Shown here piece after piece: positions 10,525 through 13,719 of a DNA stretch of 64,000 nucleotides. The stretch spans positions 62,001-126,000 of the forward strand of contig NZ_ATZA01000002.1 of the NCBI RefSeq assembly GCF_000427965.1, written 5' to 3'. Origin of the DNA: Olivibacter sitiensis DSM 17696 (GTDB lineage Bacteria > Bacteroidota > Bacteroidia > Sphingobacteriales > Sphingobacteriaceae). Every line of letters starts with the position of its first letter. Position 1 is the first letter of the stretch. The translations under genes were made by a program, and so were the position numbers. The notes under the pieces are model-generated. The model worked only from the letters and a program-made list of their open reading frames with translations. It was not told the origin of the DNA and searched no databases.

Positions 10525-11520
10525 TTATCGTTTTACTAAATGCCTACTGAGTACCAGATCGATAATTTCTTGGGTATTGTCAGGGTAATCAACAGAAACG
10601 CGATGGTTACTTTCCAGCCAAGCATCTATCTCTTCGTCATATTTAGGTTTCAAGCTCTTGATGACCGGCACACCCATCTGTTTCAAAGCTGCGGCATTAA
10701 GATGCTGCTCGTACTGATTCTTCATGGGGACTACCATTAACTTCTTACTAAGAAAAAGCGCTTCGGCCGGCGTTTCGAAACCTGCACCACATAGCACTCC
10801 CGTAGACGTAGCCATGCTCTTGACAAATGCCTCATTGTCGATGGGTTTTACCGAGACATTCTTGGTCGTGAACGGAGACTTATTGTGCTTGGAAAACACC
10901 TCCCACGACACATCCTTAAAACGCAGCAAATTCTTTATAAGCCTACGGTCGTCATATGCCGGCAAATAGACGGTATAATGATCTCCGGCAATCACCTCCT
11001 GCTCCCTCACTTGTTGCCTGATAACTGGAGTGAAGACGCAGTCGTTGTATATTTGAAAATGAAATCCGTAAGAAAGCGTACTAGGTGAATAATGCTTCAA
11101 AATAAACTTCCCCATCATGTCTTGCTCTTTGGGTTTGGGCGACAAGACATCGAGAACAGCCGCTTGATGGCTCAAACTAACGCATGGAAACTCCTTAAGG
11201 TAACATGCCCAAGCAGACACCGGTTCAAAGTCGGTAATCACCAGATCGTACTCTTCAATGGGCAAGCTATGGATTTCTTTAATGGTTTGGCGCAACTTGC
11301 TCTTCCGGAAGGTCCGCCATAAATCTACGCCCCCACTTTTCCCAAAGATAAAGCTCAATCCGCGCATGCGGTACTTAACGGCAAAGGGGACGGCTAGGTC
11401 AGCCTGTATCCCACTGATAAGAACATCCACGTCAACTCGTTTCTGCAGGCAGGGGACTATATCCATCGCCCTGCTAAGGTGACCATTGCCTGTGCCTTGA
11501 ATAGCGTATAGTACTTTCAT
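10525..11520 (-). CDS. Glycosyltransferase of GT-B fold (MurG/UDP-glycosyltransferase like)
   Basis: A 331-residue protein with a glycine-rich N-terminal loop IQGTGNGHLSRA (residues 5-16) and a C-terminal nucleotide-sugar site LCGAGFETPAEALFLSKKLMVVP near residue 250, followed by QYEQHLNAAALKQMG. This layout is typical of GT-B glycosyltransferases and of a family often annotated as MJ1255-like. Donor and acceptor are unknown. Start: a TTG two codons upstream exists, but the ATG at 11520 is more likely. A short hairpin (11527-11546) sits just before it. The upstream partner in the same direction is the Mpo1-like gene, 37 bp away. Confidence 0.8.
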   Translation of the reverse strand: MKVLYAIQGTGNGHLSRAMDIVPCLQKRVDVDVLISGIQADLAVPFAVKYRMRGLSFIFGKSGGVDLWRTFRKSKLRQTIKEIHSLPIEEYDLVITDFEPVSAWACYLKEFPCVSLSHQAAVLDVLSPKPKEQDMMGKFILKHYSPSTLSYGFHFQIYNDCVFTPVIRQQVREQEVIAGDHYTVYLPAYDDRRLIKNLLRFKDVSWEVFSKHNKSPFTTKNVSVKPIDNEAFVKSMATSTGVLCGAGFETPAEALFLSKKLMVVPMKNQYEQHLNAAALKQMGVPVIKSLKPKYDEEIDAWLESNHRVSVDYPDNTQEIIDLVLSRHLVKR

Positions 11521-11526
11521 TGACAA

Positions 11527-11557: not shown

Positions 11558-12091
11558 TTAATAACGCAAGCTCAGCTTGAGGAATACATACCTCCATAAC
11601 CATAAGGGCCCTATAAATAACAACTTCATATTATCTAGAAGAGATACCTTTTTTCCTTGTTTTTTGTCTATAATATACCGACCTATCAACCCAATTATCG
11701 ATGCAAGCACAAAAACAGCTAGACAGCACAGCCACGGCTCTGGCCCACTCTCTTTTTCCCAATATTCCAATTGGACAAAAAGATAGCTGAACAAACCAAA
11801 GGTAATCAACATAAAATAAGAAAGCATAGGTGAAAGGCGATAATAACAATAAATTAATATGGCCATTAAAAAAGTAAACCAATTAACAAATCCGTTATAT
11901 CTCCCAAAAAAAACCAGATAAGGAAATGGAATGAACCACACGAGCCCACACAAACCAAACCACCAGAAAAGCATACCTACCGCCTGTGCCCCCCTTTTGG
12001 AGGGAGATGGATATTGTTCTTCATAAAAACGGAAGTAGGTATCTATCGGTCTTAGGGGTTCCTTTTTTGGTTTTTTGTTCTTTGCTGTCAT
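11558..12091 (-). CDS. Mpo1/DUF962-like integral membrane protein lacking expected histidines
   Basis: A 177-residue protein with about four to five membrane segments. The pattern of a Tyr-rich N-terminal helix, GLVWFIPFP (50-57), NWFTFLMAILIYCYYRLSP (70-88) and the ending GKKVSLLDNMKLLFIGPLWL matches COG4539/DUF962, the family of the yeast Fe(II) dioxygenase Mpo1. As I recall the family, the conserved histidines fall in SHQNPxNKxxHW and IGH; here they appear as Tyr27, Gln36 and Asp142. If that alignment is right the protein cannot bind iron in the usual way. It precedes the glycosyltransferase, probably in one transcript. Confidence 0.65.
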   Translation of the reverse strand: MTAKNKKPKKEPLRPIDTYFRFYEEQYPSPSKRGAQAVGMLFWWFGLCGLVWFIPFPYLVFFGRYNGFVNWFTFLMAILIYCYYRLSPMLSYFMLITFGLFSYLFVQLEYWEKESGPEPWLCCLAVFVLASIIGLIGRYIIDKKQGKKVSLLDNMKLLFIGPLWLWRYVFLKLSLRY

Positions 12092-12165: not shown

Positions 12166-13719
12166 CTACTTGGCAAAGGATACCGAACGCGTCTCGCGTA
12201 TGACGGTCACCTTAATCTGCCCAGGATAAGTCATTTCGGTTTGAATTCTATTGGAAATATCGGCAGCTAGAATTTCGGCCTGTGCATCATTCACCTTTTC
12301 ACTCTCCACTACTACACGTAATTCCCTACCCGCCTGTATGGCGAAAGTTTTTTCGACTCCCGGGTACGAGAGTGCTAGCTCTTCGAGTTCCTTCAAGCGT
12401 TTGATATAACTCTCTACCACCTCGCGTCTGGCACCTGGACGTGCACCTGATATGGCGTCACAAGCTTGCACGATGGGAGAAATCAGGGAAGTCATTTCAA
12501 TTTCGTCATGGTGGGCACCAATTGCATTGCACACTTCCGGATGCTCTTTATATTTTTCTGCCAGTTGCATCCCCAAAATAGCGTGTGGCAACTCTGGATT
12601 ATCGTCAGGCACCTTACCAATATCATGCAGAAGTCCGGCGCGCTTAGCAAGTTTCACATTCAGGCCCAACTCTGCAGCCATCGTGGCACAGAAGTTTGCC
12701 ACTTCACGCGAGTGCTGCAATAGATTCTGTCCATAGGAGGAACGGTAGCGCATTCGGCCTACCATGCGGATAAGTTCTGGATGCAAACCGTGAATCCCCA
12801 AGTCTATGACTGTACGCTCGCCTATCTCCACAATCTCATCTTCAATCTGTTTTTTCGTTTTCGCTACCACCTCTTCTATTCTGGCGGGATGGATACGACC
12901 ATCGGTCACCAAGCGGTGCAATGCCAAACGAGCAATCTCCCTACGCACCGGGTCGAATCCCGACAAAATGATGGCTTCTGGGGTATCGTCTACTATAATT
13001 TCTACCCCCGTGGCAGCTTCCAATGCGCGGATATTTCTACCCTCCCGGCCTATTACCCTACCTTTAATCTCATCATTTTCAATATTGAAAATAGAAACAG
13101 TATTCTCTATGGCGCTTTCGGTAGCAGTACGTTGAATGGTTTGGATAACTACTTTTTTAGCTTCTTTATTGGCCGTTAGTTTGGCTTCGTCCACAATATC
13201 CTTTATTTGGCTCATTGCCTGCGTACGAGCTTCCTCACGCAAGTTGGCCACCAATTGTTCCCTTGCTTCGCTAGCAGATAACCCAGCTATTGTCTCCAAT
13301 TGCTTGATATGTTGTAGCTTTAACTGATCTACCTCTTCCTGCTTCTTCTCATTCAGCTCTATTTGTCTTTCGAGGTTCTTACGCGTATTGTCTATTTCTT
13401 GCTTTTCCCTGTTGGCATTTTCCAATTTCTGATTAAGGGACTGTTCCTTTTGCCTTAGACTATTCTCCTTTTGACTCAGGGTATTGTTCCGCTGATTTAC
13501 CTCTTTTTCATGCTCGGCCTTCAAGTGCAAAAACTTTTCCTTAGCTTCCAGCATACGGTTCTTTTTCATCAACTCAGCCTCTTGTTCGGCTTCCTTGAGT
13601 ATTTTCTTAGCTTTATTCTGGGCGGTTATCTCCTGCTTCTTCAACAATTTACGTAGCAGATATCGCCCTACAGCAAATCCGATTACCAGACCTATTATTA
13701 TACCTATTATTGTCTCCAT
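12166..13719 (-). CDS. rny: Ribonuclease Y
   Basis: A 517-residue membrane-anchored endoribonuclease that starts mRNA decay. Domains in order: an N-terminal membrane helix ([19 protein letters not shown], residues 4-22), a long Lys/Glu/Gln coiled coil (about 25-160), a KH RNA-binding domain with [17 protein letters not shown] near 220, and an HD phosphohydrolase domain with [12 protein letters not shown] near 363 and [10 protein letters not shown] near 398. Length and order match the family. It is the last gene of the pheT / coiled-coil / zapA / rny series and is separated from zapA by a 307-bp structured spacer. Confidence 0.97.

Follow-up and report, generated by a model that had tools for sequence, protein, structure and literature searches.

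Can a membrane protein that lacks every histidine expected to hold its catalytic metal still be kept by selection, and, if so, for which function? This question is raised by a gene of Olivibacter sitiensis AW-6T (assembly of 5,053,571 bases in 110 contigs), located within the window analysed here, a whole stretch of 64,000 nucleotides of contig NZ_ATZA01000002.1. A sequence-only reading of the window had described its product as a relative of the Mpo1/DUF962 proteins without the expected metal-binding histidines, and had tentatively linked it to the glycosyltransferase encoded next door. We analysed the descent of this gene, the spread of histidine loss among its relatives, the selection acting on the His-less proteins and the conservation of its neighbours. 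The positions of the relevant features are summarized in Table 1.

Table 1. Positions within the window of the gene, its neighbours and the sites discussed in the text
Feature	Position	Strand	Basis or remark
His-less Mpo1-like membrane protein gene, long form, PF06127-derived	11558..12091	minus (12091 -> 11558)	ORF list (177 aa and a stop codon), homology, alignment, model
Codon Tyr27, column of first conserved His (SHQNP)	12011..12013	minus	alignment
Codon Gln36, column of second conserved His (NKxIHW)	11984..11986	minus	alignment
Codon Asp142, column of third conserved His (IGH)	11666..11668	minus	alignment
Middle segment, residues 53-118 (IPFP...NW...LSPxLSY...QLE...GP)	11738..11935	minus	best kept in His-less proteins, missing from short PF06127 proteins
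rny (RNase Y), upstream neighbour, 74 bp away	12166..13719	minus	usual neighbour across homologous loci
Glycosyltransferase, MJ1255/VC2487 family, downstream neighbour	10525..11526	minus	TIGR00661 match

Identification of the gene as a long-form Mpo1-like gene

The O. sitiensis protein matched PF06127 with a score of 16.3 bits (E = 0.011), under the curated Pfam cut-off of 24, so that Pfam alone would miss it. Its descent was nevertheless established through four other Olivibacter genomes (G001-G004, including Olivibacter jilunii, Olivibacter sp. XZL3 and O. domesticus), of which the orthologues, flanked by the same neighbours, matched the O. sitiensis protein at E 7e-52 to 9e-55 with 49-51% identity, and themselves matched PF06127 at E 1.2e-15 to 1.4e-18, well above the cut-off as judged by E-value. 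The relation to DUF962 that had been read from the sequence was thus borne out by homology to bona fide members of the family. The opposite possibility, that there is no such relation, was ruled out by the Olivibacter matches at E 7e-52 and better. The C-terminal signature pointed out in the same reading (GKKxSxLDN, IGPLWL and RY) was present in full, as GKKVSLLDN, IGPLWL and RY, and the multi-helix membrane layout that it had assigned to the protein agreed with the predicted helices of the O. domesticus orthologue.

A search for a second, histidine-containing copy elsewhere in the O. sitiensis genome, which that reading had proposed as a check, found none: PF06127 gave no matches and the protein itself as query gave one. 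A single-protein scan of genome contigs confirmed no relative. The O. sitiensis gene is the single-copy orthologue of the long-form Mpo1-like protein encoded downstream of rny in Sphingobacteriaceae. With the long form of PF06127 in Bacteroidia (roughly 150-180 aa), the O. sitiensis protein has in common its descent, its length, its predicted helices, the motifs WxIPFP, NW, YxxLSP and GPxWL, the C-terminal Y and, within Sphingobacteriaceae, the place of its gene downstream of rny. It differs from the long form in that all three histidines and most of the surrounding columns are replaced, and in its score below the family cut-off.

Replacement of the three conserved histidines

We aligned 303 distinct family proteins from 352 homologous loci. 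In the O. sitiensis protein, the three conserved histidine columns were occupied by Tyr27, Gln36 and Asp142, exactly the residues that had been named from the sequence as standing in place of the expected histidines. A fourth histidine (WLLHF), which is less conserved and occurs in 138 of the 151 intact proteins, was replaced by Arg167. No histidine was detected anywhere among the 177 aa, which rules out the replacement of the lost columns by other histidines. All four other Olivibacter copies contained the three histidines (hereafter HHH), and the loss in O. sitiensis, if loss is one-way, occurred after its split from these four genomes.

Spread of histidine loss within Sphingobacteriaceae

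The gene was present in 388 of 399 Sphingobacteriaceae genomes and absent from 11, five of which belong to genus g18 with small genomes (2.2-2.8 Mb). The 303 distinct proteins comprised 151 HHH proteins, 100 with none of the three histidines and 52 in a partial state, including one truncated row (L060). The loss of all three histidines, noted at first for O. sitiensis alone, therefore extends to a recurrent feature of the family. At the level of genera, for which 252 genomes were read (in g16, 72 of the 92 in which the gene was matched), none of the three histidines was found in 72/72 genomes of g16, probably Sphingobacterium at a guess, nor in 4/4 genomes of g4, and all 19 genomes of g14 (Pedobacter) were HHH. 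Mixed states were observed in Olivibacter (4 HHH, 1 none), g3 (1 HHH, 2 none), g7 (1 HHH, 1 partial, 1 none) and the Mucilaginibacter-type genus g15 (37 HHH, 47 partial, 17 none and 3 with both kinds of copy). Since the g15 and g16 loci were fetched mainly among low-scoring matches, the share of lost copies in these counts is not a prevalence. Outside Sphingobacteriaceae, 67 distinct long-form proteins (73 loci) were read from the same class, and 65 of them were HHH; of the two exceptions, one came from a frame disrupted ahead of the first two columns and the other was a spurious weak match.

The 51 complete partial proteins consisted of 27 with the first and second histidines (HHx), 23 with the first only (Hxx) and one with the second only (xHx). 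The third histidine was gone in all 51, as if the losses were ordered and this residue were lost first; 47 of the 51 came from g15, and thus few independent events lie behind this order.

His-less and intact copies occurred together in 3 of the 252 genomes read. In these three Mucilaginibacter-type genomes (G443, G581 and G722; L304-L309), the His-less copy lay beside rny, and a second, HHH long copy was found elsewhere, with no rny in the stretch read.

Number of independent losses

To count the losses, we used a gene tree built from 52 selected rows, with the active-site columns left out. In this tree, O. sitiensis grouped with the four HHH Olivibacter (support 100/96), and the sister group of Olivibacter was a clade formed by g4, g19 and g16, in which the histidines are lost throughout (100/95). 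Five changes of state were placed on it: in O. sitiensis, in the ancestor of g4, g16 and g19, in g7 together with g12, in g3 and in g15. Where the g7-g12, g3 and g15 losses separate from one another, several forks had a bootstrap of only 84-90. Two DNA trees of RNase Y were also analysed (260 rows, 99 of them not intact, with L060 removed as a contig-end truncation), in which the lost clades numbered 15 and 17 unfiltered, 12 and 10 at a support of 0.9, and 8 and 6 at 0.95. In addition, both states were observed within a single genus in four genera (g1, g3, g7 and g15). Based on the five changes in the gene tree and on these four genera, we put the number of histidine losses in Sphingobacteriaceae at about five or more, if loss is one-way; parallel losses to that of O. 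sitiensis have occurred elsewhere in the family.

The same trees bear on a different history, with one older loss in the ancestor of Olivibacter, g4, g16 and g19, followed by regain of the motifs through recombination in four Olivibacter. O. sitiensis, the other Olivibacter and the all-lost genera do form one clade of the gene tree (96/88) and lie close together in the RNase Y tree, and under strict settings, with weak branches of the RNase Y trees collapsed, O. sitiensis is no longer separate from the g16 losses. However, the position of O. sitiensis as sister to the four intact Olivibacter was obtained outside the active-site columns, and a regain would require many columns to have been restored simultaneously, as 24 are released in the His-less proteins (see below). 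We consider such a history very unlikely.

Selection on the His-less proteins

We estimated dN/dS from non-overlapping pairs at moderate dS. The median was 0.067 for 26 HHH pairs, 0.065 for 18 His-less pairs (16 from g16 and 2 from g15) and 0.096 for nine partial pairs, which included one outlier at 0.53. The His-less proteins are under strong purifying selection in g16 and g15, the two genera measured. For the O. sitiensis copy, dS was saturated, and dN to the other Olivibacter was 0.40-0.42, compared with 0.09-0.17 among those. The identity of RNase Y between O. sitiensis and the other Olivibacter was 94-95%, against 95-99% among the others. This high dN together with a near-normal RNase Y indicates that the O. 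sitiensis gene changed fast.

The fast change of the O. sitiensis copy would be expected if the enzyme were no longer needed and the gene were drifting to loss under relaxed selection. The absence of the gene from the 11 genomes described above, including the small genomes of g18, and the common partial states of the Mucilaginibacter-type genus, in combination with the higher median of the partial pairs, point in the same direction. In contrast, the median of the His-less pairs, most of them from g16, is like that of the intact pairs, no internal stop codon was found across 92 matches of genus g16, and the same middle columns are kept in separate lineages. Taken as a whole, relaxed selection is an unlikely explanation of the His-less proteins.

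Conservation of the middle segment and predicted structure

Next, we compared the columns conserved in HHH proteins between the middle segment and the rest of the protein. Of the 16 such columns within residues 53-118, 13 were kept in the O. sitiensis protein, 12 in the g16 proteins and 10 in the other His-less proteins; of the 48 in the rest of the protein, the respective numbers were 23, 11 and 4 (Fisher p 0.02, 5e-4 and 3e-5 for the three sets). These tests treat columns as independent and, like the row counts, ignore the phylogeny of the related rows. Ten columns were kept in all three His-less sets, namely, F45, W52, P55, F56, P57, N70, W71, Y81, P162 and W164. A further 24 columns were released in all three sets, and all of these lie within the N- and C-terminal parts that bear the histidines.

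This pattern also bears on the idea that the chemistry was changed rather than lost, i.e. that Tyr, Gln, Asp or Glu residues act as the ligands of a newly formed active site, which performs a related lipid reaction. Asp142 and Gln36 are able in principle to bind metals, and in several lineages the first histidine column again holds an aromatic residue, or the second one Gln. The replacements nevertheless vary by lineage (FQK, FYA, YQK, YLS and others), and the release of the 24 columns of the histidine-bearing parts in all three His-less sets is more readily explained by the loss of a site than by the rise of a new, conserved site. A changed chemistry appears quite improbable to us.

The AlphaFold model of the O. 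sitiensis protein (mean pLDDT 88.3) contained helices at residues 15-26, 30-52, 60-65, 71-86, 88-113, 119-145 and 151-172. That of the O. domesticus orthologue (mean pLDDT 89.5) agreed with it in the helices at approximately 30-52, 71-86, 88-113, 119-141/145 and 147/151-169/172. In O. domesticus, the three histidines (residues 27, 36 and 138) were located where the first long helix starts and where the fourth one ends, and would share one side of the membrane if each long helix spans it. The loops of the O. sitiensis model contained 7, 0 and 4 Lys/Arg residues on the histidine side and 1, 0 and 1 on the other, which, under the positive-inside rule, suggests that the histidine side is cytoplasmic. 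A sequence search of the PDB gave a best E of 1.6. At the level of folds, the intact orthologue had no Foldseek match to the PDB at E <= 0.001 (best VIA Z 4.6), and a second look with the O. sitiensis model at 43 chains gave a best Z of 3.6.

Proposed function and comparison with known proteins

Our proposal starts from the putative binding of Fe(II) by the histidines of this family, an expectation in line with a one-line statement on yeast Mpo1 in PMC9624242. In the intact relatives, the three histidines on the predicted cytoplasmic side would hold Fe(II). The O. sitiensis product would likewise be a helical membrane protein and, since the expected iron ligands are missing, the Mpo1-type dioxygenation of 2-hydroxy fatty acids is not expected of it. 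Judged from its residues, the protein is very probably non-catalytic in the Mpo1 sense, in agreement with the earlier putative assignment. Given that the site was lost, the gene was kept and the middle segment is the part best kept, the simplest account would be a two-function protein, of which the metal chemistry was dispensable in Sphingobacteriaceae. In that case, the middle segment of the ancestral protein would also have served a second role, one independent of metal, for which the gene would have been kept. We regard it as likely that the O. sitiensis protein is a non-catalytic Mpo1-like relative kept for a membrane function of its middle segment. The metal-independent role would most likely be played in the inner membrane, where the protein would bind acyl lipids or act as a scaffold; a putative lipid-binding scaffold role for the O. 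sitiensis protein itself is a tentative assignment, somewhat below an even chance.

Extended to Sphingobacteriaceae as a whole, this reading would mean that the long Mpo1-like protein linked to rny primarily serves a membrane function that needs no metal and is carried by the middle segment, with the dioxygenase site as an ancestral extra that was discarded repeatedly, the third histidine first. The chance of this generalization may not be far short of even. If it is true, the family is a natural experiment that separates the catalysis of an enzyme from a second function. The retention of His-less versions, under purifying selection where measured, points to an activity besides metal chemistry, with the middle segment as its likely seat. 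Annotation by family name would wrongly call the His-less relatives dioxygenases, and the occurrence of intact and His-less copies within one genus makes a clean genetic test possible.

The short PF06127 proteins of Bacteroidia are without the middle segment, and their alignment to the long form is confined to the parts on either side of it. Their three-histidine framework was observed in all 29 proteins read (of 30), where only the first two histidines are an independent test, the frames having been picked by a motif that contains the third. No short form was found in the O. sitiensis genome. Among the matches listed, a short copy occurred in none of 140 non-HHH genomes and in at least 31 of 93 HHH genomes, and the short form thus seems not to take over the chemistry where the long form has lost it. 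With respect to yeast Mpo1 (Seki et al. 2019, as cited in PMC9624242), the relationship is one of Pfam family name only; the O. sitiensis protein differs from it in lacking the expected iron ligands, and so its reaction would not be expected.

Pseudoenzymes are conserved proteins that have lost a catalytic site and are kept by selection. The O. sitiensis protein resembles them as a conserved protein with a lost catalytic site. Compared with pseudoenzymes generally, the present case stands apart in that the loss happened repeatedly, about five times or more, within a single bacterial family; most of the losses concern one locus, and in most cases no additional intact copy is present. A search of a limited literature collection found no paper on recurrent loss in pseudoenzymes, and no study on the function of bacterial Mpo1-like proteins or their His-less members, which is no proof of absence.

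Neighbouring genes

The distance of 37 bp between the gene and the glycosyltransferase, as given in the sequence-only reading, holds if counted from the ATG of the latter (11520), and is 31 bp from the TTG used in the ORF list. The glycosyltransferase matched TIGR00661 at E 1.4e-43 with 149.4 bits, below the cut-off of 195.9, and is thus an outlying member of that family. That reading had further suggested that the His-less protein now serves this MJ1255-type enzyme. The two genes are close together on the same strand, and the glycosyltransferase is a neighbour common to all five Olivibacter genomes compared. However, in the four other Olivibacter genomes, the glycosyltransferase (70-72% identical) adjoins an HHH copy. 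Over the stretches read, it was a neighbour at only 13 of the 352 loci, from nine distinct genomes, and 11 of these 13 copies were HHH, the exceptions being O. sitiensis and L035 only. As the same neighbour adjoins intact copies, the link finds no support in synteny, and we consider a service to the glycosyltransferase extremely improbable. Promoter-like and terminator-like sites between 10300 and 12400 showed no excess over shuffled sequences (3 versus 4.7 and 0 versus 2.1, respectively).

The upstream neighbour rny was matched at 300 of the 352 homologous loci, on the same strand in 300/300 and within 200 bp in 244/300. Outside Sphingobacteriaceae, no rny was seen beside the gene in the stretches read at nine HHH loci; the rny link is therefore a lead and not proof, and a direct role with RNase Y is improbable in our estimate. 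The adjacency is also broken in part of g16, where the interval between rny and the gene is widened to 0.85-1.3 kb at many of L125-L149 and rny was not in the fetched stretch at other loci.
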